NCBI GenBank assembly: GCA_947561715.1
Contig: OX387197.1
Span: 26,314,266 to 26,378,265, forward strand
Direction of reading: 5' to 3'
From: Ascidia mentula
Lineage: Eukaryota > Chordata > Ascidiacea > Phlebobranchia > Ascidiidae
Length of the DNA: 64,000 nt
Under the pieces are notes generated by a model, which saw only the letters and a program-made list of their open reading frames with translations, did not search any database and was not told where the DNA came from. Numbering within the stretch: position 1 is the first letter of the stretch; each line of letters begins with the position of its first letter. Position numbers and translations under genes: made by a program. Below, one piece after another: positions 30,732 through 63,142 of the stretch.

Positions 30732-31517
30732 CTAGTTGTTTGTTATGGTCACCACGGCGTAAGTTTCATCTGTGACGTCATGGGTTTGATGGACATTGAC
30801 TCAGACACTCTGAACTTTGTGTAATTGATCGTAAGTTTCAGAAACACTTTCGTCAGTCTGTAAACCACTGTAAACTTCTTCTGCTGTCGCCTGATGCTGC
30901 AGTTGATCGTAAGTATCTGTGTCATTATCGGTCAGTTGCAATGTGTTGTATGTTTGTGTGTCTGGTACGGGGTGTTGGAGGTGGTCGTACGTTGTCTGTT
31001 GCTCCACGTCTTGATGAAGTACGTTGTAAGTCTCAGACTCCATTTGAACTTGGTCGTAATTATCCACAGGTTCTACCTCTAGTGCTGTGGCGTATGTTTG
31101 GTCTTTAATCCGCGACACTTGTGGTTGATTAATGTTTTCATCCTGTGCAGTAGTGTATGTTGCACTCAACGCAGTGTCGTATGTAAGTTCTTCAATTTTG
31201 TCATTTTGCTCAAAGTTACCAACTTCTTGTGCTAATCTATACGGATTTTCATGTGGAGTTTGCTCCTCTAGTTTGGCATATGTATCTCCATTCTGCTGGG
31301 CTTTGTGTAAAACGTTGTAACCCTCGTTTTGAAACTTATCAATTTCACTGTAAGGACATTCTTCATCGACTCGATTAACATCTTCTGCAATGGCGTACGT
31401 TTGTGATTCCGGTTTTGTGACGTCATAACCGAGATTGTTGTTCTTTATGATGGTCTCGCTTCCGGATTTTCCTTTTGTCGATTTTATTTTACTTTTACGT
31501 GAAGGATTGGAGGGGTT
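30732..31517 (-). pseudogene. Untranslated remainder of the receptor A tail exon
   Basis: This stretch still reads through most of the tyrosine-rich tail seen in copies B and C (TYNTLQL, TYDQLQH and similar repeats), with in-frame 3-bp changes. It lies behind a stop at 31518-31520, and a second stop removes the last 20 or so codons including the TYAVV motif. The frame kept in between suggests recent loss, or use in a transcript that avoids the stop. Confidence 0.7.
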
Positions 31518-33697
31518 TTATGGTTGAGATTCTGTACCTACGTGGTAACATATGTGGGTTATAACCGCTCCCTATCCATCTACGTTACTACAGTTGAGCA
31601 ATCCTTACACCGAGCAAAGTACGCGACACAATATCTCTGATCACTTGATTACTCTGTAGCTGTGTTAATATAAACCCCAAGCTTTAACTTTGAGGCTCAC
31701 TCAATTACAATTCCTTCCACTCATACCAACGTACATAGATCATTAATGTCAACATAACTAAAAACAATACTTACAAATGTTTTCCACTTTATTAATCGTT
31801 GGGTTTGTCTTGCGTTCAGCACTAAATGGAACAAAAAACTATGTTTATAATCAGCAATCTTAGATAACAAACAGTCCAGCAAAATTGACCTCTAATTAAT
31901 TTTGCTTTGTTTTTAATTGTTTATATTATGGCACATTTTATAAAGTGTTGTTCGTCCTTATTTATGATAAAACTTTTACCGTTTTCTTCTGCGAATGTGA
32001 AACACCATCAGTAGACTGAAGATAAACAGAAAAACTCCAACACCAACCGAAGCAACAATAATGTACAAGTTGTTGTTGGTATTTGGTGGTAAGTTGCCAG
32101 ATGTAGAGTCTAGTTAAGACATACGCTATTTAACATTCATTAAATTCATGCTCAGTCACCAAAACACAAGACACGGTATAATTTATTAAAGCTTATGAAC
32201 ATGGAAACAAAAGCAATCTCCAAAATACAGTTAGGCAAAAACTTCTACTTACCTGTTAAACCAGACGCGGATGAATACGAAGTTGTCGGATTTGTTTGAC
32301 TAAACGTGTCATTATGGTTCGCCGTTTGTCCGAAAGCAGTGGTTTGGACTTGGCTGGTTGCCATGGTAGTACTACGTTTGGTTGTTGCTGTTGCGGTTGT
32401 AGTTGTAGTTATTGATAATGTTGTTGTGCTGGATGTTGAAGTGGTAGCAGGAGTTGTGGTGATCCTTGGTTGTGTTGACGTAGACGTCATAGCTGTGCAC
32501 ATTGTGACATGTTATGAATAAATTTGAACATGTGCATTTATGAAAAGTAAATGCGAGTTTCTTGTGAAGATTTCTATGTTTAACCCAACAAAAAGAAAGC
32601 GCAAATACAACCACTTAGTGTGCGGTGATGCTGATTCAGTGCAGTCGGTGCCTTTGCACAGAGCATTTATTATACATCACATAAATTGCTGTTGTTTCGA
32701 ATAAGGAAGGCTGATTGCTTGCGCACTAAGAAGGAACAGATGTTTTTACAAAGATGACTGCGAACAAAAAAAATATTTTGTATTGATTACCTGAGGGGTT
32801 TCTTTCACAAATGTATCTCGAAGCAAATGAGCAAGGAACATCTCTCCATCTGTATGTTGGATCAAGTTCGTAAACCCATCCCATTATCACACAATCCTCA
32901 TTTCCATCCTTGTTGTTTGGTTCGCCTCCAAACCACTGTCCACTGTCAGCTTTTGATCCATCCGTCCACTTAAAGTTGTTTTTTCCCTGAACTCGTGTTG
33001 CTCCGATGTAGAAAGAGAATGGGAAAGCTTTACAACGATGAGCAAACGCGTTAGGTACGCCATATTATCCTCAAATAATTTTACAATTCGTTTGTTAAAA
33101 GTTACTTCTTTCAGCAAAACTTATTTTGCAATTATTGCTTAAGTTTGAAGCACAAGCTTTAAGATTTACTGAGAATCTGACTGCGATCTAATATTACAAA
33201 TATCCGAGGAATTACCCTGGAAACACATCCATGTAAATTTTTAAAATAAAAGCCAAAAAGTCTTTACTTAACACTAAGTGTACTAAATGCACTTGAGCTT
33301 GTCTATCCCATAAGTAACATAATGTTCACTAATTTTGGCAAAATATTCCCACACTTTCTTCATTTTCCTTAACCTTGTATTTTCATAGAAACGAATTCAT
33401 TTTTAAGTAAATTTATTTCCCGCAAAAAAATCCACAGGTAAGTATCATACAAACAACAAAACTACCTGTAACTGTTCCAATCTTGCCCACGAGGAAGTTA
33501 AATATGGCTGTCTTTTTAACACTGGCGAGAAATGTATTGTGTGCATTGCCTTGGTGTCCACTGCATGCAGTTTCAGCTTCTGTGTATGAATTAACTTGAG
33601 GTCCGATCAAATATTCCCTGTAGTCGTCATACTTGTACCAAGTTTGTCCAAAAACAACAGGAAGCATAAATCCAAGTATTATGGTCAATACTTTCAT
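31518..33697 (-). CDS. C-type lectin receptor A, tail-less
   Basis: Exons: 33466-33697, 32791-33027, 32253-32492, 31980-32109, 31775-31821 and 31518-31537, giving 301 aa. The signal peptide starts at the inner Met (MKVLTIILGFMLPVVFG). The C-type lectin domain spans exons 1-2: WYKYDDYREYLIGP, the TACSG cysteine, a WTDG core, GEPNN, EDCVIMGW, RWRDVPC and RYICE. Exon 3 is a Thr/Ser-rich stalk likely to be O-glycosylated. Exon 4 is a membrane span with no charged residue and an RRRKR stop-transfer. The linker exon reads RAERKTNPTINKVEN. The tail exon stops after TESQP. The product is a surface lectin without signalling motifs. The GEPNN motif is of the mannose-type calcium site, but the usual WND reads WRD. 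Confidence 0.78.
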
Positions 33698-34229
33698 GTT
33701 GCCTGTGCTAATACCAGCAATACACACACATATATATAATAACCTGTATTAATTGTGCAATTACGTAATTGTGTCTCATTAACATTCATACGCGATGTAC
33801 ACAACACACAAGTTTTCAGGATTATTAAAGAAAAATGTCAAGAAGAATTTGAATAGCAGATTTACATCACAATTACCCATTTGTAAAAATAACTCCTAGG
33901 ACATTAATGTGAAACGAAACAATCGGACTTATTAGAACGTATTAGAATCGACATTAAATGTAATTACTCCCACACTGAAACAAAGCACCCAAAGTCGCTT
34001 GTTCATGAAAAAACTCCATGGAAATTATTTGTTTTGTTTTACAATTTACAAGATTCAACAAACTCCTGCTAACTTATGTGAAAATCTACTTTCTTCAATG
34101 TGTTCACAAAAGGCGAATTACACCGGCAAAATCTGAAACACAGCATAAACTTGTGCATCTCGTAAAACTCCATACTGTGAACGATTGTGTAGTTAAACTT
34201 ACTGAGCCTCTGTTAGAGTCACCACTTAC

Positions 34230-34362
34230 GTCTACGTAAGAATATACGTTGTTTGGTTTGACCACAGCGTTATTGACGCAACACCGCCCACATTCGCGTG
34301 GTTCTGATTGATAATCGAAACGCGTCACACGTTGCAGAGAAGGCGCGTAACTACAGTGAAAA
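34230..34362 (-). other. Cys-rich open exon-like segment upstream of receptor A
   Basis: The frame NGFHCSYAPSLQRVTRFDYQ, then ECGRCCVNNAVV, ends at VD just before a gtaagt donor, about 530 bp upstream of the receptor start. It is kept in units B (38,961-39,093) and C (44,231-44,441). Downstream, near 34,165, an ATG CAC AAG TTT ATG run resembles the Ly6 signal exon. It may be a 5' exon or a relic. Confidence 0.35.
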
Positions 34363-35465: not shown

Positions 35466-38439
35466 TTAGTTGTTTATTTTATTCACCACGGCGTAAGTTT
35501 CATCTGTGACGTCATGGTTTTGATGGACATTGACTCGGACACTCTGAACTTTGTGTAATTGATCGTAAGTTTCAGAAACACTTTCGTCAGTCTGTAAACC
35601 ACCGTAAACTTCTTCTGCTGTCGCCTCATGCTGCAGTTGATCGTAAGTATCTGTGTCATTATCGGCCAGTTGCAATGTGTTGTATGTTTGTGTGTCTGGT
35701 ACGGGATGTTGAAGGTGGTCGTACGTTGCCTGTTGCTCCACGTCTTGATGAAGTGAGTTGTAAGTCTCAGACTCCAGTTGAAGTTGGTCGTAATTATCCA
35801 CAGGTTCTACCTCTAGTGCTGTGGCGTATGTTTGGTCTTCAATCCGCAACACTTGCGGTTGATTAATGTTTTCATCCTGTGCAGTAGCGTATGTTGCACT
35901 CAACGCAGTGTCGTATGTAAGTTCTTGAATTTTGTCATCTTGCTCAAAGTTATCAACTTCTTGTGCTAATCTATACGGATTTTCATGTGGATTCTGCCCC
36001 TGTAGTTTGGCATATGTATCTCCATTCTGCTGGGCTTTGTGTAAAACGTCGTAACTTTCCTCGTTTTGAAACTTATCAATTTCACTGTAAGGACATTCTT
36101 CATCGACTCGATCAACATCTTCTGCAATGGCGTTAGTGTGTGATTCCGGTTTTGTGACGTCATAACCGAGATTGTTGTTCTTTATGATGGTCCCGCTTCC
36201 GGATTTTGCTTTGGTTGATTTTCCTTTACGTTTTCGTGATGGATTGGCGGGGTTTTCTGGTTGAGACTCTGGACCTGCGTGGTGACATATGTGGGTTATA
36301 ACCGCTCCCCATCCACCCACGTTACTACAGTTGAGCAATCCTTATACAGAGCAAAGTACGCGACACAATATCTCTGATCACTTGATTACTCTGTAGCTGT
36401 GTTAATATAAACCCCAAGCTTTAACTTTGAGTCTCCCTCAATGACAACTCATACCAACGTACAGAGATCATTAATGTCAACATAACTGGAAAAATTACTC
36501 ACAATTCGTGTTTTCCACTTCATTAATCGTTGAGTTTGTCTTGCCTTTAGCACTAAATGGAACAAAAAAGCTAAATTTGTTATCAGCAATCTTAGAAAAC
36601 TAACAGCCCAGCAAAATTAACCACTAATTAATTTTGCGTTGTTTTCTATTGTTTGTATTATGGCACATTTCGTAAGTGTTGTTGTTTGACTAAATTATGA
36701 TAAACGTTTACCGTTTTCTTCTGCGAATGTGAAACACCATCAGTAGAGTGAAAATAAACAGAAGAACTCCAACACCAACCGAAGCAACAATAATGTACAA
36801 GTTGTTGTTGGTATTTGGTGGTAAGTTGCCTGATGAAGAGTCTAGTTAAGACATATGATATTTAACATTTACGAAATAGGGTTAAATTCATGCTCAGTCA
36901 GCAAAACACAAGACACGGTATAATTTATTAAAGCTAATTAACATAGAAACAAAAGCGAACTCCAAAATAGTGTTACGCAAAAACTTTCTACTTGCCTGTT
37001 AAACCAGACGCGGATGAATACGAAGTCGTCGGAATTGTTTGACTAATCGTGTCATTATGTTTCGCCGTATGTCCAAAAGCAGTTGTTTGGCCTTGGCTGG
37101 TTGCTATTGGAGAACTACTTTTCATTGTTGCTGTTGTGGTTGTAGTTGCTGGTATTGTTGTTGTGCTGGATGTTGGAGTGGTAGTAGTTGTTGTTGTTGT
37201 TGTGGTTGTAGTTGTAGTTGTTAATATTGTTGAAGTGGTAGCAGGAGTTTTTGTGGTCTTTGGTTTTGTTGACGTAGACGTCGTAGCTGCGCACATTGTG
37301 ACATGTTATGAATAAAACTGAACATGTTTATTTATGAAAAGTAAATGCGATTTTAATTTCTTGTGAAGATTTCTATGTTTAACCCAACAAAAAAAAGCGC
37401 AAATACAATCACTTAGTGTGCGGTGATGCTGATTAAGTGCAGTCGGTTCCTTTGCACAGACAGCATGACATAAATTGCTGCTGTTTCGAAAAAGAAAGGC
37501 TGATTGCTTGCGCACTACGAAGGAACAGATGTTTTTACAATTAAGATGATTGCAAACAAAAAAGTTATTTTGTATTGATTACGTGTAGGTTTTCTTTCAC
37601 AAATGTATCTCGAAACTGATGAGCAAGTAACATCTCTCCATTTGTATGGTGGGCGTAAAAGTTCGTAAATCCATCCCATTATCACACAATCCTCATTTCC
37701 ACCAGCGTTGTTTGGTTCTCCGTTTGTTTGAACCCACTGTCCACTGTTAGCACTTGTACCATCCGTCCACTTAAAGTTGTTTGTTCCCGGAACTCGTGTT
37801 GCTCCGATGTAGAACGAGTATGGAACAGCTGCACGTGGGCAAAAACTTGTTTGTTGAAAGTTACACCTTTCATGTTTTGAATATTTTAATACTGTCACAA
37901 TTAAACGCGTTAAAGCAGTCGAACTGTCGGTGAACAAAAGTTCACGTTTAATCGTGCCATAAGACATAAATACAATATGCCTGGTAGCAACATCAACATA
38001 ACATTTGTTACTTCTTTCAGGTAAAACAATCAGTCAACCAAACAACATACACCAATTCGTTTGTTAAAAGTAACATAATGTTCGTTAATTTTGCCAAAAT
38101 ATTCCCAAGCGTTCTTCATTTTCTTTAACCTTGTATTTTCATAGAAACGAATTCATTTTTAAGTAAATTTATTTCCCGAACAAAAATCCGTGGGTAAAGT
38201 ATCGTACAAACAACAAAACTACCTGTAACTGTTCCAATCTTCCCAACCAGGTAGTTAAACATAGCTGTTGTTTTAACATTTGCGAGATGTGCATTCTGTT
38301 TACTGCATGCTTCTTCAGCTTTTTTGTAAGAATTAACTTTGGGTCCGATCAAATATTCGCGGTGGTTGTCCATCATGTACCAAGTTTGTCCACAAACAAC
38401 CGGAAGTATAAATCCAAGTATTATGGTCAATACGTTCAT
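35466..38439 (-). CDS. C-type lectin receptor B with multi-YxxL tail
   Basis: Exons: 38223-38439, 37583-37828, 36996-37286, 36712-36841, 36503-36552 and 35466-36274; 580 aa, phases consistent throughout. Signal peptide MNVLTIILGFILPVVCG. C-type lectin domain about residues 18-154, with all four core cysteines, NGEPNN and KWRDVTC. Thr-rich stalk about 155-251. Membrane span about 266-288, followed by RRRKR. The tail of about 290 residues has 16 tyrosines, 11 in YxxL/I/V form (YSEI, YDVL, YAKL, YDQL, YNSL, YDHL, YNTL, YDQL, YGGL, YDQL, YAVV). YDQL and YNSL are six residues apart, as in an ITAM; most later pairs are nine apart. It is likely a type I surface receptor signalling through SH2-domain proteins (inference). 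Intron 3 has a GC donor. Confidence 0.87.
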
Positions 38440-38960
38440 GTTGTCTGTGCTAAGACTAACAACACAAACACATATACAACCTGTATTAATGGTACAATTA
38501 CGTAATTGTGTCTCATTAACATTTATACGCGATGTACACAACACACATGTTTTTAAGGATTTTAAAAGATAAATGTTAACGAAAATTTGAATAGCAGATT
38601 TACGTCACAATTACCCATAAGTAAAAATAACTCCTATGATATCAATGTAATAGGCGGGCCTATTAGAACCTATTAGAATCGACATTAAATGTAATTACTC
38701 CCACACAGAAACAATCACCCAAAGTCGCTTGTTCATGACAAAAACTCCATGAAAATTATTTGTTTTGTTTCACAATTTACAAAATTCTACAAACTCCTGC
38801 TAACTTATGTGAAAATCTCCCTTCTTTAATTTGTTCACAAAAGGCGAATTACACCGGCAAACTTTGAAACACAGCATAAACTTGTGCATCTCGTAAAACT
38901 CCATACTGTGAACGATTGTGTAGTTAAACTTACTGAGCCTCTGTTAGAGTCACCACTTAC

Positions 38961-40244: not shown

Positions 40245-43200
40245 TTAGTTGTTTGTTTTATTCACCACGGCGTAAGTTTCATCTGTGACGTCATGGTTTT
40301 GATGGACATTGACTCGGACACTCTGAACTTTGTGTAATTGATCGTAAGTTTCAGAAACACTTTCGTCAGTCTGTAAACCACTGTAAACTTCTTCTGTCGT
40401 CGCCTCATGCTGCAGTTGGTCGTAAGTATCTGTGTCATTATCGGTCAGTTGCAATGTGTTGTATGTTTGTGTGTCTGGTACGGGATGTTGAAGGTGGTCG
40501 TACGTTGCCTGTTGCTCCACGTCTTGATGAAGTGAGTTGTAAGTCTCAGACTCCAGTTGAAGTTGGTCGTAATTATCCACAAGTTCTACCTCCAGTGCTG
40601 TGGCGTACGTTTGCTCTTTAATCCGCGACACTTGCGGTTGATTAATGTTTTCATCCTGTGCAGTAGCGTATGTTGCACTCAACGCAGTGTCGTATGTGAG
40701 TTCTTGAATTTTGTCATCTTGCTCAAAGTTATCAACTTCTTGTGCTAATCTATACGGATTTTCATGTGGATTTTGCCCCTGTAGTTTGGCATATGTATCT
40801 CCATTCTGCTGGGCTTTGTGTAAAACGTCGTAACTTTCCTCGTTTTGAAACTTATCAATTTCACTGTAAGGACATTCTTCGTCGACTCGATTAACATCTT
40901 CTGCAATTACGTACGTCTGTGTTTCCGGTTTTGTGACGTCATGACTGAGATTGTTGTTCTTTATGATGGTTTCGCTTCCGGATTTCCGTTTTGTTGAATT
41001 TCCTTTACTTTTACGTGAAGGATTGGTTGGGTTTTCTGGTTTAGAATCTCGACCTGCGAGTTAATATATGTGGGTTAAAACCGGTCCCTCTCCACCAACA
41101 ATTAAACGTTCCTTATACCGAGCTACGTCACGCACTCATACCAACGTACAGAGATCATTAATGTAAACATAACTGGAAAAATTACTCACAATTCGTGTTT
41201 TCCATTTCATTAATCGTTGAGTTTGTCTTGCCTTCAGCACTAAATGCAACAAAAAATAAATTTGTTATCAACAATCTTATTAAACTAAGGGTGCCTCTAA
41301 ACTGCCATTGTAGGCATCCTAGGCATTGTAGGCATTGAGTCTTGGCATTGTAGGCATTGAGTCTTGGTATTGTAGGTGTCGTAGACATTGTACGCATGGT
41401 GTCTGGGCATTGTAGGCATAATAGGCTTTGTAGGCATTAAATCTATGCCTAGACTCAATGCCTACGATGCCTACAATGCCTACGATGCCTACAATGCCTA
41501 CAATGCCTACGATGCCTACGATGCCTACGATGCCCACAATGCCTACAATGGGTTTTTAGAGCGACCGTTTAAACCAGGGGCGGGCAACTTCTCCAGTCGG
41601 CGGGCCTGATATGAAAAAATGAAGTACTTGGCGGGCCGGATATTTACTGTAAACTCTAAATCTAATTTTAACAGAAAACAAAGAATCTAAAAACACAAAG
41701 AAAACAAAGAACTAAAGAATAACTAACAATCACTATAATTTAACGTAGTAAGCAAGTAGTGGGGGATTGCGGCAGACTGTGGCAGCGGGCCACATTATCA
41801 TGTAAGACCGGAAACTGTCTGCGGGCCGCTCAACATCCCGTCGCGGGCCGTATGTTGCCCGCCCCTGGTTTAAACTAACAGCCAAGCGAAATTGACCACT
41901 AATTAATTTTGCGTTGTATTTTATTGTTTATGTTATGGCACATTTTATAAAGTGCTGTTTGTCAACTTATTTATGATAAACGTTTACCGTTTTCTTCTGC
42001 GAATGTGAAACACCATCAGTAGACTGAAAATAAACAGAAGAACTCCAACTCCAACCGGAGCAACAATAATGTACAAGTTGTTGTTGGTATTTGGTGGTAA
42101 GTTGCCAGATGAAGAGTCTAGTGAAGACATACGATATTTAATATTTACGAAATAGGGTTAAATTCATGCTCAGTCACCAAAACACAAGACATGGTATAAT
42201 TTATAAAAGCTCATTAACGTTGAAACAAAAGCGATCTCCAAAATACAATGACGCAAAACTTTCTACTTGCCTGTTAAACCAGACGCGGATGAATACGAAG
42301 TTGTCGGATTTGTTTGACTAATCGTGTCATTATGTTTCGCCGTTTGTCCGAAAGCAGTTGTTTGGACTTGGCTGGTTGCTATTGGAGAACTACTTTTCGT
42401 TGTTGCTGTTGCGGTTGTAGTTGTTAATATTGTTGTTGTACTGGATGTTGTAGTGGTAGCAGGAGTTTTTGTGATCTTTGGTTGTGTTGACGTAGACGTC
42501 GTAGCTGTGCACATTGTGACATGTTATGAATAAATCTGAATATGTGTATTTATGAAAAGTAAATGCGATTTTAATTTCCTGTGAAGGTTTCTATGTTTAA
42601 CCCAACAATAAGAAAGCGCAAATACAACCACTTAGTGTGCGGTGATGCTGATTAAGTGCAGTCGGTGCCTTTGTGCAGAGCATTATTTTATACCGAACAC
42701 AAATTGCTGTTGTTTCGAATAAGGAAGGCTGATTGCTTGCACACTACGAAGGAACAGATGTTTTTACAAAGATGATTGCGAACAAAAAAAATATTTTGTA
42801 TTGATTACCTGGGTTTCTTTCACAAATATATCTCGATGTAAACGAGCAAGGAACATCTCTCCATCTGTATGTTGGATCAAGTTCATAAAGCCATCCCATT
42901 ATCACACAATCCTCATTTCCACCAGCGTTGTTTGGTTCGTTTGTAAACCACTGCCCACTGTCAGCTTTTGATCCATCCGTCCATATAAAGTTGTTTTTTC
43001 CCTGAACTCGTGTTGCTCCGATGTAGAACGAGTATGGAACAGCTGTACAACGATGAGCAAACGCATTACGTACGCCATATTATCCTTAAATAATTTTACG
43101 ATTCGTTTGTTAAAAGTTACTTCTTTCAGCAAAACTTTTTTTTGCCAAAGTTTGAAACACAAGCTTTAAGATTTACTGAGAATCTGACTGCGATCTAATA

Positions 43201-43700
43201 TTACAAATATCCGAGGAATTAACCCTGGAAACACATCCATGTAAATTTTTTGAAAAAAAAACAAAAAGTCTTTACTTAACACTAAGTGTACTAAATTCAC
43301 TTGAGCTTGTCCATAAGTAACAAAACGTTCGTTAATTTTAGCATAATATACCCACACGTTCTTCATTTTCCATAACCTTGTATTTTCATAAAAACGAATT
43401 CATTTTTAAGTAAATTTATTTCCCGAACAAAAATCCGCGGTAAAGTATCATGCAAACGACAAATCTACCTGTAACTGTTCCAATCTTCCCCACAAGGAAG
43501 TTAAATATGGCTGTTTCTTTAACACTGGCGAGAAATGTATTGTGTGCATTGCCTTGGTGTCCACGGCACATTGTTTCAGCTTCTGTGTATGAATTAACTC
43601 GAGGTCCGATCAAATATTCCCTGTAGTCGTCATACTTGTACCAAGTTCGCGCAAAAACAACAGGAAGCATAAATCCAAGTATTATGGTCTGTACTTTCAT
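40245..43700 (-). CDS. C-type lectin receptor C with multi-YxxL tail
   Basis: Exons: 43469-43700, 42809-43042, 42271-42504, 41988-42117, 41190-41239 and 40245-41053; 562 aa. The domain order equals copy B. Exon 1 is most like copy A (WYKYDDYREYLIGP, HQGNAHNTFLASVK); the signal peptide end is changed (FART). The lectin domain has TNEPNN, EDCVIMGW, RWRDVPC and RYICE. The stalk is the shortest of the set. The linker exon reads RAEGKTNSTINEMENTN. The 268-codon tail matches B nearly residue for residue, adding one tyrosine (QTYVIAEDV) and ending TYAVVNKTNN. Intron 3 starts with GC; intron 5 holds a foldback element and a hAT element. Intact by eye; a type I signalling lectin is inferred. Confidence 0.87.
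41288..41568. mobile_element. Foldback element built of 9-bp repeats
   Basis: The left half is repeats of ATTGTAGGC, the right half the complement GCCTACAAT or GCCTACGAT, so the element folds on itself. Ends AGGGTGCCTCTAAACTGCC and the complement of ACGGTCGCTCTAAAAACCC match at about 13 of 19 bases. An 8-bp duplication TTAAACTA flanks it (41280-41287, and after 41568 where it is split by the next insertion). Unit B shows the empty site. Non-coding; hAT-like non-autonomous or foldback class. Confidence 0.75.
41575..41867. mobile_element. Non-autonomous hAT element (293 bp)
   Basis: Terminal inverted repeats CAGGGGCGGGCAAC and its complement, with a perfect 8-bp duplication GTTTAAAC (41567-41574 and 41868-41875), are diagnostic of hAT. 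Internal GCGGGCC repeats are typical of such short derivatives. It landed within the target duplication of the foldback element, so it is the younger insertion. Confidence 0.9.
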
Positions 43701-46343: not shown

Positions 46344-49300
46344 TTACTTTACTCCTTTGTTGACAACGGCGTAAGTTTCGCCTGTGACGTCATGGTTTCG
46401 ATGGACATTGACTTGGACGCTCTGAACTTTATGCAATCTATCACAACTATCGTCAGTCTGTAAACCACTGTAAGCTTCTACTGTTGTTGCATGTTGATGC
46501 AGTTGGTCGTAAGTATCTGTGTCATTATCGGTCAGTTGCAATGTGTTGTATGTCTGTGTGTCTGGTACGGGATGTTGGAAGTGGTCGTACGTTGCCTGTT
46601 GCTCCACGTCTTGATGAAGTGCGTTGTAAGTCTCAGACTCCAGTTGAAGTTGGTCGTAATTATCCACAGGTTCTACATCCAGTGCTGTGGCGTATGTTTG
46701 CTCTTCAATCCGCGACACTTGCAGTTGATTAATATTTTCATCCTGTGCAGTAGCGTATGTTGCACTCAACGCAGAATCAAATGAAAGTTCTTGAATCCTG
46801 TCAACTTGTTGTCCCGAAGAACTTTTTTCAACAACTGGGAATTCTTCAGAGTTGTCACGATTTCCTGGTTGAGATTCTAGACCTGTGGCACAGGCACACA
46901 AACATTATGTGAAACATTAGTGTTTCCAGTGTTGTTCTGGCAAAAAAGTGTTTCTGTTTTCAAAAAATCAGCATTTCTCAACTATTACAGGCGACGAACA
47001 AATTCTGCAGGCGCAATATTCTGGTTAGAATTACTAAACCGCGTTATTGGACAATGGGGGGGTTCCACTGGTAATCAGGCCAAATGACTGAAACACATCT
47101 GCACGCAACAATATTAAGGGGGAAAACAAAACATAGTTCTCACCGTGGACGTTTTCCGTTTGAACATTCGTCGATACGAGTTTGTCCTCAGCTCTAATTC
47201 AAGCAAAAACTTTGTTACAGTTCGGCCAACTTAATACTTTAACCCTGCATTGGGGACAGTGAGATGAACTTTTACCAATTTCATTAATATCCGAATGAAA
47301 CAAAAAGTCTATAGACATGTATGTATTAGATTTTAAGCAATCAGCGCACACCTGTGGTTGCCACAACGTTTTTAGAGGAAATATAATCGTGGACACTAAA
47401 CCAAATAAGGTGGCACTCCGAGGTATGTAAAACTACGTTGTGTTTTCAACTAATAGTTTTCTAGATAAGATTATATAGATTTATGGATAAACATGTATTA
47501 TAATTCAAAACATATCAACACACACTTGACAAGGTGTGACGTAAATGCTTTTACCTCCTTCTTTTGTAAAATATGACACAAACAACGGCGAGACAGAGAA
47601 AACCCCCAACACCAGCTGAAGCAAAAATTATGAAGTTGTTGTTGTTTGGTTTAGAGCTTGGTGGCAATTGATTAGATGAAGTGTCTGCAATCAAATTTCA
47701 GTTTACAATGTCGTTAACCAGGTGATTACATGTTATTCAAATACGTTTATTTTTTCAAGGCATAAGGGATAAAATAACAAAAAATGGGTCGTCGTCAGAC
47801 GGATGCATAACTCAGGAAAATGAAAAGGCATCTGATTATGCTACGAACTTTAATCTAACAAACAAAAACGATTACAAACTTTAAACTTAAAAAAATCTCT
47901 TTTAGCTTTAACCTGGGTAGGTTATTGAATCGTACCATTAGGGAGGGATGTTGTTTCGCTATCTGCTGGTAGGACTTCACTTGTTGTCATAGTTACGCTA
48001 CGTTTGGTGGTGATGATCGATGGTATTTCTGTACTGGTGGTGGTTGTGGATGATTTTGCTCTTCTGGTGGTGGTTGTTGCTGTAGTTGGGGGTATTGTGG
48101 TGGTGGTTGTAGCTGTTGTTGCAGTTGTGGGTGTTGTTCTTTTGGTGGTTGTTGATGTTGTTGTTGTAGTTGGGGCTGTTGTTCTACTAGTGGTGGTTGT
48201 TGTTGTGGATGGTATTGTTGTACTAGTGGTTGTTGTTGTTGTATTGGGGAAGGCAGAAGTGGTGGTTGTGGTTGCCATAGACGCCTTAGCTGTTTAAAAC
48301 ACAACTTATCACCATATTTTCAAAGCCGAACTTTCTTAAGAAAATTATCATCGAGTTTATTCATACGCCTGGTTCGAGGCTAAATTTAAGGAACACGGTT
48401 AAAACTTTTTTGTTGACTTAACAAACACCTATTTAAATTCAGCAGCTTAGTTAGGTCCCTGCACTTGGTAAGGGTTTTTTTTACAACAACGCGGTTTCAC
48501 AGCAAGAAACTTGGATTTTTTAGCAGCCATCTTACCTGATGGGTTTCTTTCACAAATGTATCTCGATGTAAACGAGCAATGAACATCTCTCCATCTGTAT
48601 GTTCGATCAAGTGATTCAATCCTTCCCATTATCACACAATACTCTCTTTTATCTATGTTGTTTGGTTCGCCTTCACTCCACTGTCTACTGTTAACACTTG
48701 ATCCATCCGTCCATGTAAAGTTGTTTGTTCGCGAATCTCGTCTTGCTCCGATGTAGAATGAATACGGGCGTGCTACAATAACGAAAACCAAACAGTTATA
48801 TGAAGAAAAAAATTTTTTTGCCGCTCATGTTGAGGGAGCCGAGTGGTTCGGACACAATAGGACAGAAAAATACATTTGTTTTTGTTATACAACGCAAAGT
48901 TGTTTGTTTTTGTTATACAACGCAAAGTTGTTTGTTTTGTTATTTTTTCACCGAAAGAAAGAACAATCCAGTTGTTGATCGTGTTTTCTCGGTGGTGAAA
49001 CCTAATTTTATGTTTCTGGCGTACTATAATTAACTTATAGCTGTAATCAGCAAGTAAAGGCCTTTTTATTGTTTCTACGTTTGGAAAATTCGATTCAAAA
49101 GGAACTCCACCATTCTAAAAAAATAAATAGAATTATTGGAGGTAATTTACCTTTCACTGTTCCAAATGAAATATCGTTGTTGTTTTAACATTGGCCGGGT
49201 GTGCGTTACTTGTATTGCATGCTGTTTTAGCTTCTGTGTATAAATTAACTTTGGGTCCGATCAGATATTCCCTGTGGTCGTCATACTTGTGCCAAGTTTG

Positions 49301-49353
49301 TGAAGTGTTAACAGGAAGCAAAAATTCCAAACATTACGATCAGTAATTCCATC
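46344..49353 (-). pseudogene. C-type lectin receptor D, first exon damaged
   Basis: Exons: 49151-49353 (damaged), 48536-48772, 47936-48289, 47555-47684, 47144-47193 and 46344-46882. Exon 1 has an extra base within the signal peptide and a gap of about 16 bp near its end compared with copy E, so no signal peptide or N-terminal lectin strand can be read. The other exons are open: lectin second half with GEPNN and RWRDVHC, a long Thr-rich stalk (354 bp exon), a span rich in Gly, Cys and Val, linker RAEDKLVSTN, and a shorter tail of 178 codons with YDQL, YNAL, YNTL, YDQL, YSGL and YAVV. One tail repeat reads YDHF instead of YDHL. A sequencing error cannot be excluded. Confidence 0.78.
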
Positions 49354-49354
49354 T

Positions 49355-50668: not shown

Positions 50669-51486
50669 GGTCGTAAGTATCTGTGCCATTATTGTCTAGC
50701 TCAGTGGTTCTTAACCGGGGAGGCGTCAACCAATTCTCATGGGGGGCGCAAGCTCTATACCAAAACTTCATTTTTTGTAGTGACTTTAATGTCCTATGCT
50801 GTCTGTCATATTTTTCTTACAGTTTCGGAACAAAAATCTTGTACTTTAAATGAAAAATCCGCCTTTGTAGTTTAATTACTGTTACATCACAAAGAAACCA
50901 TTGCGTCACAAAATACCTTTTGTGATGATTCATGTGTTTCGTCACAAACCGTTTATTGGTCCCGTAATTCTAGTTAAAATAAACAAGATTAAATTGATAG
51001 ATATTATGTTTTTATAAAACCTATTTACAGTTTAGGGGGGCGTAAGGCACAAGACCGTTACTAAAAAGGGGCGTGATAGAAAAAGGTTAAGAACCACTGT
51101 TATAGCTGCAATGTGTTGTATGTTTGTGTGTCTGGTACGGGGTGTTGGAGGTGGTCGTACGTTGCCTGTTGCTCCACGTCTTGATGAAGTGTGTTGTAAA
51201 CCACTCCACTGCTGTGGCGTATGTTTGCTCTTTCGATCCTTGATCCTTGCAAACCGTCAATATTGGCGAAATCGTGTGCCAACGCATACAAATGGTCTTC
51301 TGGTTTCGACTCCTGCTGTGCGGTGTATGTTTCAACACCCAACAGGGAATTGCGGGGAATTCGACAATTTTGTCCCGACTAAAGTTCGTAAATTTCACTG
51401 TGCGGCGACAAGACGAATCGTTTTTCCTGTGCAAGGGCATACGTTCGTGATTTCGTGTTGTCATAATTGATGACGTCATTGCTTCT
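50669..51486 (-). pseudogene. Tail-only exon F1, interrupted by a hAT element
   Basis: A receptor tail exon without lectin, stalk or membrane exons. The 3' half matches other tails (YNTLHQD, TYDHLQH, TYNTLQ). The 5' half differs from A-E: SRTYALAQEKR, PHSEIYEL, ETYTAQQESKPEDHLYALAH. One stop follows EIYEL. Insertion of a 398-bp hAT element splits the exon; the remaining end (GGTCGTAAGTATCTGTG on the plus strand) lies left of it. Confidence 0.7.
50702..51099. mobile_element. Non-autonomous hAT-like element (398 bp)
   Basis: Perfect 15-bp terminal repeats CAGTGGTTCTTAACC and complement, flanked by an 8-bp duplication matching at 6 of 8 bases (gtctagct and ttatagct). It is inserted in tail exon F1 and has no coding capacity. 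Confidence 0.85.
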
Positions 51487-53069: not shown

Positions 53070-53660
53070 TTACTTTACTCCTTTGTTGACAACGGCGTAA
53101 GTTTCGCCTGTGACGTCATGGTTTCGATGGACATTGACTTGGACGCTCTGAACTTTGTGTAATCTATCACAACTCTCGTCAGTCTGTAAACCACTGTAAG
53201 CTTCTACTGTTGTTGCATGTTGATGCAGTTGGTCGTAAGTATCTGTGTCATTATCGGCCAGTTGTAATGTGTTGTATGCTTGTGTGTCTGGTACGGGATG
53301 TTGAAGGTGGTCGTACGTTGTCTGTTGCTCCACGTCTTGATGAAGTGTGTTGTAAGTCTCCCCACTGCTGTGGAGTATGTTTGCTCTTTCGATCCTCGAT
53401 CCTTACAAACCGTCAATATTAGCAAAATCGTGTGCCAACGCATACGGATGGTCTTTTGGTTTCGACTCATGCTGTGCGGTGTATGTTTCAACACCCAACA
53501 GGGAATTGCGGCGAATTCGACAATTTTGTCCCGGCTAAAGTTCGTAAATTTCACTGTGCGGCGACAAGACGAGTCGTTTTTCCTGTGCAAGGGCATACGT
53601 TCGTGATTTCGTGTTGTCATAATTGATGACGTCATTGCTTCTGAGGTGTTTTTTTTAATT
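53070..53660 (-). pseudogene. Tail-only exon F2
   Basis: The same variant 5' half as F1 (SRTYALAQEKR, PHSEIYEL, ETYTAQHESKPKDHPYALAH) with two in-frame stops, then the common 3' half: ETYNTLHQD, TYDHLQH, AYNTLQL, TYDQLHQ, AYSGLQ, ETYAVVNKGVK. No other receptor exon lies between it and receptor E. Confidence 0.72.
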
Positions 53661-55184: not shown

Positions 55185-55358
55185 TAAAGATTACTTGTGG
55201 GAATTGTTAGAAAATCTGTTGCTAAATATTTATTGGCCATAAAGAAAACATGGAATTCAAAGTACACAAACTTTCATTTGAAACAAAACAAAAACAAAGA
55301 CAGCATTGATTTAAAACATATTAAAGTGTTGAAATTCCTCACAGCACAAGCGATGGTG

Positions 55359-58300
55359 TTACTTTACTCCTTTGTTGACAACGGCGTAAGTTTCGCCTAT
55401 GACGTCATGGTTTCGATGGACATTGACTTGGACACTCTGAATTTTATGCAACCTATCACAACTATCGTCAGTCTGTAAACCACTGTAAGCTTCTACTGTT
55501 GTTGCATGTTGATGCAGTTGGTCGTAAGTATCTGTGTCATTATCGGTTAGTTGCAATGTGTTGTATGTCTGTGTGTCTGGTACGGGATGTTGAAGGTGGT
55601 CGTACGTTGCCTGTTGCTCCACGTCTTGATGAAGTGTGTTGTAAGTCTCAGACTCCAGTTGAAGTTGGTCGTAATTATCCACAGGTTCTACATCCAGTGC
55701 TGTGGCGTATGTTTGCTCTTCAATCCGCGACACTTGCGGTTGATTAATGTTTTCATCCTGTGCAGTAGCGTATGTTGCACTCAACGCAGAATCAAATGAA
55801 AGTTCTTGAATCCTGTCAACTTGTTGTCCCGAAGAACTTTCTTCAACAACTGGGAATTCTTCAGAGTTGTCACGATTTCCTGGTTGAGATTCTAGACCTG
55901 TGGCACAGGCACACAAACATTATGTGAAACATTACTGTTTCCAGTGTTGTTCTGGCAAAAAAGTGTTTCTGTTTTCAAAAAATCAGCATTTCTCAACTAT
56001 TACAGGCGACGAACAAATTCTGCAGGCGCAATATTCTGGTTAGAATTACTAAACCGCGTTATTGGACAATAGGGGGGTTCCACTGGTAATCAGGCCAAAT
56101 GACTAAAACACATCTGCACGCAACAATATTAAGGGGAAAACGAAACATATTTCTCACCGTGGACATTTTCCGTTTCAACATTCGTCGATACGAGTTTGTC
56201 CTCAGCTCTAAATCATGCAAAAACTTTGTTACAGTTCGGCCAACTTAATACTTTAACCCTGCATTGGGGACAGTGAGATGAACTTGTAATATTAGTTTTA
56301 ACATTTACCAATTTCAACAAAAAGTCTATAGACATGTATGTTTTAGATTTTAAGCAATCAGCGCACACCTGTGGTTGTCACAAAGTATTTAGAGGAAATA
56401 TAATCGTGGACACTAAACCAAATAAGGTGGCACTCCGAGGTATGTTAAACTACGTTGTGTTTTCAACAAATAGTTTTCTAGATAAGATTATATAGATTTA
56501 TGGATAAACATGTATTATAATTCAAAACATATCAACACACACTTGACAAGGTATGGGATAAATGCCTTTACCTTTTTCTTTTGTAAAATATCACACAAAC
56601 AACGGCGAGACAGAGAAAACCCCCAACACCATGAAGCTGAAGCAAAAATTGTGAAGTTGTTGTTTGGTGTAGAGCTTGGTGGCAATTGATTAGATGAAGT
56701 GTCTGCAATAAAATTTCAGTTCACAATGTCGTTAACCAGGTGATTACATGTTATCCAAATACGTTTATTTTTTCAAGGCATAAGGGATAAAATAACAAAA
56801 AATGGGTCGTCGTCAGACGGATGCACAACTCAGGACAATGAAAAGGTATCGGATTATGCTACGAACTTTAATCTAACAAACAAAAACGATTACAAACTTT
56901 AAACTTAAAAAAATCTCTTTTAGCTTTAACCTGGGTAGGTTATTGAATCGTACCATTAGGGAGGAATGATGTTTCGCTATCTGATGGTAGGACTTCACTT
57001 GTTGTCATAGTTACGCTACGTTTGGTGGTGATGATCGATGGTATTTCTGTACTGGTGGTGGTTGTGGATGATTTTGCTCTTCTGGTGGTGGTTGTTGCTG
57101 TAGTTGGGGGTATTGTGGTGGTTGTAGCTGTTGTTGTAGTTGTGGGTGTTGTTCTTTTGGTGGTTGTTGATGTTGTAGTTGGGGCTGTTGTTCTACTAGT
57201 GGTGGTTGTTGTTGTGGATGGTATTGTTGTACTAGTGGTTGTTGTATTGGGGAAGGCAGAAGTGGTGGTTGTGGTTGCCATAGACGCCTTAGCTGTTTAA
57301 AACACAACTTATTACCATATTTGCAAAGCCGAACTTTCTTAAGAAAATTATCATCGAGTTTATTCATACGCCTGGTTCGAGGCTAAATTTAAGGAACACG
57401 GTTAAAACTTTTTTGTTGACTTTACAAACACCTATTTAAATTCAGCAGCTTAGTTAGGCCCCTGCACTTGGTAAGGGTTTTTTTTTACAACAACGCGGTT
57501 TCACAGCAAGAAACTTGGATTTTTTAGCAGCGATCTTACCCGAGGGGTTTCTTTCACAAATGTATCTCGATTTATACGTGCAATGAACATCTCTCCATCT
57601 GTATGTTCGATCAAGTGGGTAAATCCATCCCATTATCACACAATACTCTCTTTTATCTATGTTGTTTGGTTCCCCTCCAATCCACTGTCCACAGTTAACA
57701 CTTGATCCATCCGTCCATGTTAAGTTGTTTGTTCCCGAATCTCGTGTTGCTCCGATGTAGAACGAGTATGGGGAAGCTACAATAACGAAAACCAAACAGT
57801 TTTATGAAGAAAAGATATTTTTTCGCCACTCCTGTTGATGAGGTAGCCGAGTGGTTCTGACATAAAACGTCAGAAAAATACATTAGTTTGTTTTTGTTAT
57901 ACAACGCAAATTTGTTTGTTTTGTTATTTTTTCACCGAAAGAAAGAACAATCCAGTTGTTGATCGTGTTTTCTCGGTGGTGAAACCTAATTTTATGTTTC
58001 TGGCGTACTATAATTAACTTATAGCTGTAATCAGCAAGTAAGGCCTGCGCTGCCTGACATACATGAAACTCTCGATAAACCTAAAAACAACGGATGAATG
58101 TTGAATCCATGAACCAAATAACATAACATGTAACGCCAGAATGCCACGAATGGAATTCTTCCATTCGCACAAAACATCGAGCATAATTGAAACAAACTTG
58201 TAGACAACAAGCACGCATTGCAGACAAATCTGTGAAGGCAACTACATATGCACGCAGCTTTTTTGTGTTATAATCATGGCAGATAATTTCATGTGATCTT

Positions 58301-58688
58301 GTACCGTCATATTCTGTTCTCACAAAGACCCAGCATTTCACTTTATTTGATTGTCTTGACTAAAAAAGCGTTGTATGAAATTTTTTTTATTGTTTCTACG
58401 TTTGGAAAATTCGATTCAAAAGGAACTCCACCATTCTAAAAAAATAAATAGAATTATTGGAGGTAATTTACCTGCAACTGTTCCAATCTTTCCAACCAGG
58501 AAGTCAAATATCTCTGTTGTTTTAACATTGGCCGGGTGTGCGTTGCTTGCATTGCATTTGGTTTCAGCTTTTTTGTATGAATTAACTTTGGCTCCGATCA
58601 AATATTCCCTGTCGACGTCATACTTGTGCCAAGTTTGTCCAAAAACAACCGGAAGCAAAAATCCAAACATTACGATGAGTAATTTCAT
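55359..58688 (-). pseudogene. C-type lectin receptor E, frameshifted in the membrane exon
   Basis: Exons: 58472-58688, 57540-57776, 56954-57292, 56572-56702, 56158-56207 and 55359-55897. Exons 1-3 are intact: signal peptide MKLLIVMFGFLLPVVFG, lectin domain with GEPNN, YCVIMGW, RWRDVHC and RYICE, and a long Thr-rich stalk. Exon 4 has a 4-bp insertion and a 3-bp loss against copy D (131 instead of 130 bp), so the span is read out of frame and a stop comes at the start of exon 5. As it stands it would encode a secreted lectin with a mucin-like tail. The tail exon itself is open (YDQL, YNTL, YDHL, YNTL, YDQL, YSGL, YAVV) but unreachable in frame. Confidence 0.78.
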
Positions 58689-58689
58689 C

Positions 58690-59640: not shown

Positions 59641-59831
59641 AAAAATACCTTTTGTGATGATTCATGTGTTTCGTCACAAACCGTTTATTGGTCCCGTAAT
59701 TTTAGTTAAAATAAACAAGCTTAAATTGATAGATATTATGTTTTTATAAAACCTATTTACAGTTTAGGGGGGCGTAAGGCACAAGACCGTTACTAAAAGG
59801 GGGCGTGATAGAAAAAGGTTAAGAACCACTG
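59641..59831. mobile_element. Truncated copy of the F1 hAT-like element
   Basis: It matches the right 190 bp of 50,702-51,099, including the GGTTAAGAACCACTG end, and starts abruptly at the deletion junction after TTCTTCAGACC. It was inherited through the super-unit duplication, not inserted anew. Confidence 0.85.
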
Positions 59832-60017
59832 TTATAGCTGCAATGTGTTGTATGTTTGTGTGTCTGGTACGGGGTGTTGGAGGTGGTCGTACGTTGCCTG
59901 TTGCTCCACGTCTTGATGAAGTGCGTTGTAAGCCACTCCACTGCTGTGGCGTATGTTTGCTCTTTCGATCCTTGCAAACCGTCAATATTGGCAAAAGCAT
60001 GCCAACGCATACAGATG

Positions 60018-60766
60018 TAGGAACACAACTCACAGGTTTTCTCATAATTCTGAGTATAAATAGACTGGCCCATAACACTGTCATGTTAAAATAAGACGTT
60101 TCGACAAAAACTTATGTCATCATCAGTTTGACTGACGCGATTGGTGTAGCTCCATCATTATAAGGAGTTGACCTGACCGACGTCACAGATAAGGCTCGCG
60201 CGGGTGGTGACGTCATTTTGCTATCGGCCACACACCACTAAGAGGCGGAAAGTGCGCAGTAAGCGACGCAAAATACACAATAAACGGCATAAAACGCAAC
60301 AATCATAACACATTAAATAAAAATAGTGGTGCAGAAGTGCCGTCCACGTTGAGTTGTGGTTGTTGCTGTTGTATGGACAGCGATTCCATCAGTAGGAGAC
60401 GATACCTGTCTCTCGCCAGCGCAAGGATTTGTGGCTCACTAAACTTAACCTTGTGAGTCGGGTGGTCAAGTAGGTGTTTGCACACCTCCGATTTTGGGGA
60501 TCGTTTGTGCTCATCGATCCGCGTGCACAAGTTTCGAGATGTTTGTCCGATGTATGTTTGTCCACATGAACAGGAAAGCTTGTATACCACGAACGAGAGG
60601 TGCAGGGTCTTCTGGCGATCTTTAAATGGGAAGAGGTCAACTCCTTATAATGATGGAGCTACACCAATCGCGTCAGTCAAACTGATGATGACATAATTTT
60701 TTGTCGAAACATCTTATTTTAACATGACAGTGTTTATAACAATATGGGCCAGTCTATTTATACTCA
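60018..60766 (-). mobile_element. 5'-truncated Penelope-like element with inverted ends
   Basis: Flanked by an 11-bp target duplication gcatacagatg (60007-60017 and 60767-60777); copy F1 shows the empty site. Ends of about 125 bp are inverted repeats of each other, each holding a CTGATGA / paired arms / GAAA order like a hammerhead core. The middle encodes only the GIY-YIG endonuclease end of a Penelope protein; the reverse transcriptase is absent. It is a short, old-style truncated copy, younger than the super-unit duplication. Confidence 0.85.
60303..60590 (-). pseudogene. GIY-YIG endonuclease domain, C-terminal part of a Penelope protein
   Basis: The 95-codon frame begins with VYKLSCSCGQTYIGQTSRN, the GIY-YIG core with the CxC insert typical of Penelope endonucleases, followed by the conserved R and EH pair and the later ES residues. 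Without the polymerase part it cannot move by itself. Confidence 0.85.
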
Positions 60767-62322
60767 GCATACAGATGGTCTTCTGGTTTCGACTCCTGCT
60801 GTGCGGTGTATGTTTCAACACCCAACAGGGAATTGCGGGGAATTCGACAATTTTGTCCCGGCTAAAGTTCGTAAATTTCACTGTGCGGCGACAAGACGAG
60901 TCGTTTTTCCTGCGCAAGGGCATACGTTCGTGATTTCGTGTTGTCATAATTGATGACGTCATTGCTTCTGAGGTGTTTTTTTTAATTGAAAAAAAAATAT
61001 ATGTTTCAAAACCAGTTGACGACAGCACGCGTATTCGTCAGATTAAGGAAACGAAGACATTTGATTGCACATGAGTGAATTAATGTAACTTATAATCTTC
61101 CTGCACAATTGGTGGATCTGAACACTTTTACATATGCTTGAGGTGTATTAAAATTAGGTGGAAGAAACTAACACCGCTACAGCCAGGGTTTGAATTTTCC
61201 TTCTCTTGCAGTGGTGAATAAAAGTTAAAATTTCCCAAGCCCAACGCGGAAGTTGTTTCATCACAAAGCTACTGTACGTCACAGTCCACGTGACAAGATG
61301 GATCAACCCGGAACTTTTGGCTGCAATCTTTATTAGCGTGAAGTTACTGCGAAACTGTGATCAATCTCTATCCCCAGGTGACGTAGTAATATGGTGGCAG
61401 AGATTGAAAAGGATGCGCGAAAAAATAGTTTTTTACTTGTCTACGGACGTTTCCGCTGCTGACCAAAGGGGCTGAAAACAAGTTGGTAAAATGAAATTGT
61501 CCCCCTACAAAACTTCTCGCAGGAAAAGCATTGGGAGATGTTCTACATACAGTGTACACTGTTTCGAGCTATTGGACCTCATCAGTTTGACTTCCGCTAA
61601 CAAAGGTCTTAGCAGCTAAGCAGCATGGTCATCATGACTTCCACTTTATGGCTATACTTTGCAGTCACCGATACTTGCGAAACGCTAGATGGAGAATTGT
61701 CTACTCCAAGCAACAGTTTGAACAAGTACTGCCCGGCGGTTTTGCTTTATATAAGCTCTACCGTGTAAAAGAACCAATGAAAATACTTAGTTAACGCAAA
61801 CTGCACTGATGGGACCTACAGGTCATAACAACCATCATTGTATGCAGGTCTTTTGTTGGCTCTGTTACTCGACACAAACAAGATGTTATCGACTCAAAGT
61901 TACATTTTCCTATTCACCAGTCCGCAGCAGGAAATAGCGATCTCATGTATCTGCATATATTATACTGTCCAATTGTAAGTGTGAGTGCCTCGTATGGAAA
62001 TAAAGACGTTGTATACCCTGGCAATACAATGTACACGTCTACGACACATATATACAGTCCGGGTTTGGGGTTTTGTCCAAACAAGACAAATAATTAAAGA
62101 TGATGTATGCTGAATATAAAATAGTGTATCTTGAGTAAAAAACATGCTTGGCACAATTGTAAGTTTCACAATTATTGTCGCAAGTAGATGACAACGCTGC
62201 CATAATGGATTTCGTGAAACGTGAAAGAAAATACATGGACCATGGCACTCGATTCGCAACAAAAATAAGAATTAGAACCGAAACAAAACATTTCCTGGAA
62301 GTAATTTTAAGTCGCTTGTTTG

Positions 62323-62377
62323 AAGTTGTCTATAGATATATATACATTTCGCTTGCAGATATATATCTAGACAACTT
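62323..62377. repeat. Hairpin 3' of tail exon F4
   Basis: Same hairpin as at 46,115. Confidence 0.6.
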
Positions 62378-62551
62378 TAAAGATTACTTGTGAGAATTGT
62401 TAGAAAAACTGTTACTAAATCTTTATTGGCTGTAAAGAAAACATGGAATTCAAAGTACACAAACTTTCATTTGAAACAAAACAAAAACAAAGACAGCATT
62501 GATTTAAAACATATTAAAGTGTTGAAATTCCACACAGCACAAGCGATGGTG

Positions 62552-63142
62552 TTACTTTACTCCTTTGTTGACAACGGCGTAAGTTTCGCCTGTGACGTCA
62601 TGGTTTCGATGGACATTGACTTGGACGCTCTGAACTTTGTGTAATCTATCACAACTATCGTCACTCTGTAAACCACTGTAAGCTTTTACTGTTGTTGCCG
62701 GATGCTGCAGTTGGTCGTAAGTATCTGTGTCATTATCGGCCAGTTGCAATGTGTTGTATGTTTGTGTGTCTGGTACGGGGTGTTGGAGGTGGTCGTACGT
62801 TGTCTGTTGCTCCACGTCTTGATGAAGTGTGTTGTAAGTCTCCCCACTGCTGTGGAGTATGTTTGCTCTTTCGATCCTCGATCCTTACAAACCGTCAATA
62901 TTAGCAAAATCGTGTGCCAACGCATACGGATGGTCTTTTGGTTTCGACTCATGCTGTGCGGTGTATGTTTCAACACCCAACAGGGAATTGCGGCGAATTC
63001 GACAATTTTGTCCCGGCTAAAGTTCGTAAATTTCACTGTGCGGCGACAAGACGAGTCGTTTTTCCTGTGCAAGGGCATACGTTCGTGATTTCGTGTTGTC
63101 ATAATTGATGACGTCATTGCTTCTGAGGTGTTTTTTTTAATT
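62552..63142 (-). pseudogene. Tail-only exon F4
   Basis: Nearly identical to F2 at an offset of 9,482 bp, with the same stops in the variant 5' half and the same common 3' half. It differs in the TYDQLQH and KAYSGLQ repeats, which resemble copies A-C more than F2 does, hinting at conversion between units. Confidence 0.72.

Follow-up and report, generated by a model that had tools for sequence, protein, structure and literature searches.

Clustered C-type lectin genes of the ascidian Ascidia mentula are predicted to encode type I receptors with many ITAM-like tail motifs

Introduction

The canonical immunoreceptor tyrosine-based activation motif (ITAM) is YxxL/I-x6-8-YxxL/I in a cytoplasmic tail, and signalling through several ITAMs is mostly treated in connection with the antigen receptors of vertebrates. 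The vertebrate C-type lectin receptors Dectin-1, CLEC-2, Mincle, and Dectin-2 are type II proteins that use one hemITAM or an adaptor, and the C-type lectin receptors of the natural killer (NK) complex are also type II. Here, we describe a tandem array of C-type lectin genes in a 64,000-nucleotide stretch of the 195.8 Mb Ascidia mentula genome (C1:26314266–26378265, hereafter the window), which probably encodes self-contained, multi-ITAM activating receptors of type I with a single lectin domain.

In tunicates, a review of immunity in this group (PMC5465252) describes a hemocyte membrane glycoprotein of Halocynthia roretzi that has two ITAMs and is linked to hemocyte aggregation, to phagocytosis, and to signalling, as well as Ciona transcripts that encode proteins with ITAMs and immunoreceptor tyrosine-based inhibition motifs (ITIMs). 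The same review reports CD94-like lectin receptors in tunicates (a Botryllus ortholog and CiCD94-1) in connection with blood cells; the CiCD94-1 domain is said not to bind sugar, and CD94 is called type II in wording that could refer to either the vertebrate or the Botryllus protein. The H. roretzi glycoprotein, as described there, resembles the receptors reported here in being an ascidian membrane protein with its own ITAMs, but it has only two. The CD94-like proteins are also C-type-lectin-domain receptors of tunicates, and the passages on them used here mention no multi-ITAM tail. Both ITAM signalling and lectin receptors have thus been described separately for tunicates in this source; as far as the literature searched shows, the new element is the union of a lectin head and many ITAM-like motifs in one chain, in a large clustered family. 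No earlier description of this tail layout was found at the level of titles and abstract starts, with subscription journals mostly outside the coverage.

Results

Organization of the array

Five sets (copies A–E) of lectin, stalk, membrane, and tail exons lie on the minus strand of the window at approximately 30.8–58.7 kb. Splice borders were read from the sequence of this single genome and the exons were then joined. Copies B and C, together with a copy G located past the window end (C1:26385926–26389297, in L052+L053), are complete six-exon models comprising a signal peptide, a split lectin domain, a Thr-rich stalk, a membrane span, and a tail, with uninterrupted coding of 580 (B), 562 (C), and 519 (G) residues. 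All splice borders of these three copies are GT-AG, except for a GC-AG border at the stalk exon donor of B and C (AG/GCAAGT, where A has AG/GTAAGT; the slash marks the exon border). The features, with positions in the window, are as follows:

38223–38439, minus strand: copy B exon 1, signal peptide and first lectin half (ATG, hydrophobic start, donor G/GTAGTT)
37583–37828, minus strand: copy B exon 2, second lectin half with EPN and WRD (profile match and splice reading)
36996–37286, minus strand: copy B exon 3, Thr-rich stalk with GC donor (splice reading)
36712–36841, minus strand: copy B exon 4, membrane span (splice reading and hydrophobicity)
36503–36552, minus strand: copy B exon 5, juxtamembrane (splice reading)
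35466–36274, minus strand: copy B exon 6, tail with 16 Tyr and 11 YxxL/I/V (open frame and motif count)
43469–43700, minus strand: copy C exon 1 (splice reading)
42809–43042, minus strand: copy C exon 2 (profile match and splice reading)
42271–42504, minus strand: copy C exon 3, stalk with GC donor (splice reading)
41988–42117, minus strand: copy C exon 4, membrane span (splice reading and hydrophobicity)
41190–41239, minus strand: copy C exon 5 (splice reading)
40245–41053, minus strand: copy C exon 6, tail with 16 Tyr and 11 YxxL/I/V (splice reading and motif count)
31518–33697, minus strand: copy A, exons 33697–33466, 33027–32791, 32492–32253, 32109–31980, 31821–31775, and 31537–31518, ending in TAA
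30801–31517, minus strand: copy A tail frame open past the TAA, probably untranslated (open frame and tail search)
46344–49352, minus strand: copy D, exons 49352–49151, 48772–48536, 48289–47936, 47684–47555, 47193–47144, and tail 46882–46344
55359–58688, minus strand: copy E, exons 58688–58472, 57776–57540, 57292–56954, 56702–56572, 56207–56158, and tail 55897–55359
53082–53381, minus strand: partial tail copy (open frame list and tail search)
62564–62863, minus strand: partial tail copy (open frame list and tail search)
51100–51204, minus strand: short tail fragment containing a stop (tail search)
59832–59936, minus strand: short tail fragment containing a stop (tail search)

In copy A, a TAA lies six codons into the tail exon, and the copy is therefore predicted to encode a 301-residue receptor without a tail. 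Exon 1 of copy D carries a frameshift and stops, and the membrane exon of copy E carries four bases that D and G lack, an insertion by which the frame is lost. An earlier note on this DNA had proposed five copies with a receptor layout: five lectin-plus-tail sets are indeed present on one strand, but only B and C (2 of the 5) are whole. The six-exon joins that it proposed for B and C, as read from genomic sequence, have borders that fit GT-AG or GC-AG and no stop.

Comparison of the window with itself revealed that the copies are tandem duplicates. A, B, and C are 86–94% alike over long stretches, and D and E are 94% alike; the matches between A/B/C and D/E are shorter (77–89%). The four tail fragments at the end of the list are interspersed with the window copies, and the array extends past the window end with copy G and a further tail (C1:26383213–26383770). 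Also in this continuation, an open frame (L052 837–1250, minus strand) fuses the start of receptor exon 1 straight to 13-residue tail units and is perhaps the product of unequal recombination. At approximately 41300–41870, intron 4 of copy C contains an insert with inverted CAGGGGCGGGCAAC ends (approximately 41867–41574), adjoined by a GCATTGTAGGCA-type tandem array (41322–41550); the insert is not present in the corresponding intron of A or B.

Lectin head, orientation, and membrane span

Joining exons 1 and 2 of copy B raised the Lectin_C (PF00059) score from 45.7 bits for exon 2 alone to 61.9 bits and filled the profile (positions 3–107 of 107; cut-off 22.6 bits), which supports the exon 1–2 join. 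The joined exons of copy C scored 50.6 bits over profile positions 3–107 (exon 2 alone, 45.1 bits), so that the two halves previously read as a split lectin domain cover PF00059 whole in both copies. C-type lectins that bind sugar in a Ca-dependent manner have EPN or QPD plus WND. EPN is retained in A–E and G, and the WND position reads WRD in all six; as a first guess from these residues, a mannose- or glucose-like sugar may be the ligand, EPN being kept though WRD replaces WND. In a search of PDB sequences with the lectin head, the first matches by E-value were Ly75/DEC-205 and the mannose receptor, which rank high in part because they have many domains; langerin, Mincle, and CLEC6A (Dectin-2) were also among the matches.

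The best 19-residue Kyte-Doolittle window of copy B (2.76) is the membrane span, followed by the N-terminus (1.78) and by 1.07 elsewhere; besides the N-terminus, the single span proposed earlier is the one dominant hydrophobic window. The order of an N-terminal signal-like stretch, head, stalk, membrane span, and tail corresponds to a type I protein as judged from hydrophobicity and order, and the predicted layout differs from the type II orientation of the NK-complex receptors. The membrane spans of B, C, and G contain zero charged residues, which argues for a self-contained tail with no sign of adaptor pairing; dependence of these three copies on an adaptor is thus thought unlikely.

Tyrosine motifs of the tails

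The B and C tails extend 285 residues past the basic end of the membrane span. Each contains 16 Tyr, 11 YxxL/I/V motifs, and 8 pairs at the loose ITAM spacing of x6–12, and our recount agrees with the 16 and 11 given earlier for copy B; the G tail has 9 Tyr, 7 YxxL/I/V, and 5 such pairs. None of 5,000 shuffles reached either the YxxL/I/V count or the pair count of B, C, G, or two related tails (L055 and L054a), by which chance Tyr-rich sequence is ruled out for these five tails. The corresponding shuffle P values (YxxL/I/V; pairs) were 0/5000 and 0.0002 for L063, 0.003 and 0 for L054b, and 0.018 and 0.027 for L054c. The exclusion of chance is weaker for the cluster at 25.39–25.65 Mb, where six tails gave YxxL/I/V shuffle P of 0.007–0.056 and zero pairs.

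Seven of the 15 Tyr-to-Tyr distances in B equal 13 residues, five of them in a seven-motif run near the C-terminus. Tandem Repeats Finder (TRF) detected no tandem repeat in the B tail, that is to say, no recent duplication of the 13-residue unit there. Canonical x6–8 pairs are present in B (2), C (2), G (1), L055 (1), and L079 (1), and none was found in L081, L082, or L083. Among 62 pooled YxxL/I/V motifs from nine of 14 tails, D/E occupies position −2 in 36, T position −1 in 36, and L position +3 in 42, the commonest letters around the motif being [DE]TYDQLQ. ITIMs follow the pattern [SIVLT]xYxx[LIV], which has 0 matches in the B, C, and G tails and 0–2 in the related tails. The ITAM-like character ascribed to the tail in the earlier note therefore holds, in that the motifs are closer to ITAM than to ITIM by their frequent acidic −2 residue and the zero ITIM matches in B, C, and G. 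A search of PDB sequences with 88 residues from the chain in the B tail gave no match up to an E-value of 10.

The tail frames are under constraint. The ratio of nonsynonymous to synonymous substitution (dN/dS) of the tail is 0.32–0.73 in all 15 pairs among A, B, C, D, E, and G (for example, B-C 0.40, D-E 0.32, and E-G 0.32). That of the lectin head is 0.33–0.84 (seven comparisons), and that of the stalk and membrane exons is 0.26–1.10 (ten comparisons, a few of which have high dS where the stalks align poorly). Seven tails from three subclusters, three of them window copies of nearly identical sequence, were aligned; of the 10 invariant columns, 9 are in or beside YxxL.

Related lectins and tails in the genome

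The genome search with Lectin_C scored 150 of 770 candidates, which makes its counts a lower bound; at least 105 of the 150 scored matches lie at C1 22.4–27.6 Mb, and the window array is part of this larger lectin expansion. Searches with the tails of B, L055, and L054 returned 16, 36, and 14 rows, which merged into 38 places. Every one of these is on C1, with 13 belonging to the window array or its continuation (counting fragments), 23 lying at 25.35–25.69 Mb, and one each at 27.63 Mb and 7.00 Mb. The tandem family proposed earlier is thus a real array, of which only part had been seen, and related Tyr-rich tails form other clusters on the same contig. Of the 23 tails at 25.35–25.69 Mb, 10 were read; the three in L054 have 4–6 YxxL/I/V and the seven others 4–8, the tail lengths being those of open frames that possibly include a few intron residues. 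The L055 tail has 14 Tyr and 12 YxxL/I/V, and TRF detected in L055 a 39-base array (3.3 copies, 92% matches) encoding a 13-residue unit.

A second, short tail class (approximately 60–70 residues) gave 16 matches, 15 of them on C1 and two with a stop. Four short tails were read, including that of L079, which has a canonical ITAM (YVNL-x7-YMDL) plus YENM, and that of L081, which has one x9 pair. L079 is a paralogue at a distance of approximately 150 kb; its second lectin half is identical to that of A at 63 of 72 residues and to that of C at 60 of 72. Its head is near-alike to those of A and C yet its tail is different; therefore, like heads pair with different tails, which could have arisen by recombination or by fast change of the tail. 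A tree of 16 lectin halves, built to compare tail class with head, left 10 of its 13 inner branches open, and only D, E, and G grouped firmly. No such tail was found for the lectin gene L078 (22.62 Mb) among frames of at least 50 residues in 4 kb, or for L080 (27.55 Mb) among frames of at least 55 residues in 3.5 kb, a stretch that possibly truncates the gene. Beside the lectin domain at 27.55 Mb lies a Thr/Pro-rich open frame of 370 residues with short repeats (L080 1774–2883, plus strand).

Syk/ZAP-70-type kinase genes

A genome search for SH2 domains gave 47 matches, including two SH2 pairs that each share one open frame with a tyrosine kinase. These two frames (646 and 605 residues) are located 12 kb apart on C67 (L056 and L057; C67:7.963–7.979 Mb), and the SH2-SH2-tyrosine kinase architecture of Syk and ZAP-70 is thus present in two genes of this genome. 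For the 587-residue piece in L026, Syk was the first match among PDB sequences, followed by ZAP-70, and an entry named EGFR (9p9u) was fourth; for the 587-residue piece in L027, 9p9u was first by E-value, followed by Syk and ZAP-70. Among the PDB relatives whose match extends beyond the kinase, Syk and ZAP-70 lead. The two frames are 46% alike and have in common the SH2 arginines and tandem activation-loop tyrosines (YY), which we take to be the Syk sites. Both frames are uninterrupted, which suggests that the two genes arose through RNA.

Host and other features of the window

The COX1 gene on contig C79 was translated under tables 13 (AGA/AGG = Gly) and 5, giving glycine and serine, respectively, at positions that we take to be conserved glycine places. 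These glycines appear only with AGA/AGG = Gly, which identifies the host as a tunicate, in agreement with the earlier note and with the ascidian mitochondrial code.

Near the receptor copies, a 113-residue frame (60303–60644, minus strand) has a weak GIY-YIG match (20.1 bits; cut-off 22.6); we take it to be perhaps the remnant of a Penelope-type retroelement. The window contains a second large tandem duplication (5258–12084 and 21539–28483, 88–95% alike), with a Pfam Rost (rolling stone) gene at 7847–8473 and a copy at 24192–24767 (profile scan on the first only). An EamA-type transporter open frame of 317 residues is located at 15534–16487 (minus strand).

Discussion

The complete copies probably encode self-contained activating receptors. 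In such a receptor, the lectin head, borne on a mucin-like stalk, would bind sugar; once receptors cluster, the YxxL tyrosines would be phosphorylated by Src-family kinases, and adjacent phosphorylated pairs would serve as docking sites for the tandem SH2 domains of the Syk/ZAP-70-type kinases, so that one tail would load several kinase molecules simultaneously. From sequence, we infer that the genes are transcribed, that the tails are phosphorylated and dock Syk, that the outcome is activation over inhibition, and what the ligand and cell type may be. The tails resemble those of the vertebrate ITAM receptors CD3 zeta, FcR gamma, and DAP12 in their YxxL/I pairs, often with an acidic residue before Tyr, and the counterpart of the vertebrate Syk/ZAP-70-type tandem-SH2 kinase is present in this genome too. 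Unlike those chains, the models join the ligand head and 7–11 YxxL/I/V, mostly at x9 spacing and with PF02189 below cut-off, in one chain. With Dectin-1, CLEC-2, Mincle, and Dectin-2, they share a C-type lectin head and YxxL signalling through Syk (predicted here), but they are of type I with a long C-terminal tail.

Several results weigh against this interpretation. Three of the five window copies (A, D, and E) are broken. In B, x9 spacing (13 residues from Tyr to Tyr) accounts for six of the 8 pairs and exceeds the canonical x6–8. Against the Pfam ITAM profile (PF02189; cut-off 22.2 bits), joined B scored 10.5 bits and the B tail frame alone 14.4 bits, and PF02189 was not listed for the C or L055 tail; because the scores fall below the cut-off, the tails match ITAMs by motif and not by membership of this family. 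Pairs at x6–12 are absent from 6 of the seven tails sampled at 25.35–25.65 Mb, and two of the four short tails read (L082 and L083) have no full pair. The dN/dS is approximately 1 or above for the B-C stalk (1.10) and for the membrane exons of A-B (1.09) and A-C (1.06). In the seven window-family tails, 2 of 15 Y and +3 columns are variable versus 69 of 171 (Fisher P 0.051, with rows that are not independent). The self-contained multi-ITAM signalling lectin of the earlier note consequently stands in its uncharged span, its ITAM-like motifs, and the presence of Syk-type genes, and is weakened by the mostly x9 spacing, the PF02189 scores, and the 2 of 5 intact window copies.

The alternative that survives best, although we judge it unlikely, is a multivalent phosphotyrosine scaffold similar to LAT, in which the tail recruits mixed SH2 adaptors (PI3K, Grb2, and PLC-gamma) more than Syk. 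YENM and YVNL/YVNI suit p85 and Grb2, and the related short tails have YENM and YVNL or YVNI; YAN sites in L055 and L063, the mostly x9 spacing, and the lack of pairs in most tails sampled at 25.35–25.65 Mb point in the same direction. However, no listed Tyr in B or G is YxN or YxxM, canonical pairs are present in B, C, and G, and the residue frequent at +3 is L, which suits the Syk SH2. There is also a small chance that the receptor is endocytic, with the YxxL/I/V motifs as AP-2 sorting signals and the tail driving uptake of sugar-coated particles: YxxPhi doubles as an AP-2 signal, and the lectin head finds the endocytic Ly75/DEC-205 and mannose receptor first among PDB sequences, a rank to which their many domains contribute. 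One or two AP-2 sites are enough for uptake, and this explanation accounts neither for 7–11 sites, many of them 13 residues apart, nor for their acidic −2 and Thr −1 residues.

It is improbable that the receptors are inhibitory and act through ITIM-like sites and SHP-type phosphatases. YxxL/V is common to ITIM and ITAM, and the ITIM pattern occurs in some related tails (two in L054b and one each in L055, L063, L068, and L076), but the lack of any match in B, C, and G disfavours this for the window family, as does D/E at −2 in 36 of the 62 pooled motifs. That the array is merely decaying, with no copy expressed as a full receptor, would account for the broken A, D, and E and the scattered tail fragments, but is highly improbable given that the reading frames of B, C, and G (580, 562, and 519 codons) are uninterrupted, that their splice sites fit, and that the tail dN/dS is below 1.

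Beyond the reading of individual copies as activating receptors, we tentatively propose, as a possible but doubtful extension, a large germline family of activating lectins in which signal strength would depend on how many 13-residue ITAM-like units the tail contains. Units would be gained by tandem duplication, as in L055, giving tails with one ITAM to approximately eleven motifs; tail loss, as in copy A, would produce decoys; and, via the two retro-type Syk kinases, the family would represent an independent route to multi-ITAM amplification similar to that of the T-cell receptor. If true, it would become possible to follow the number of ITAM motifs as a trait that evolves outside vertebrates, and a large family of candidate immune receptors would be added for tunicates, whose recognition receptors are poorly known.

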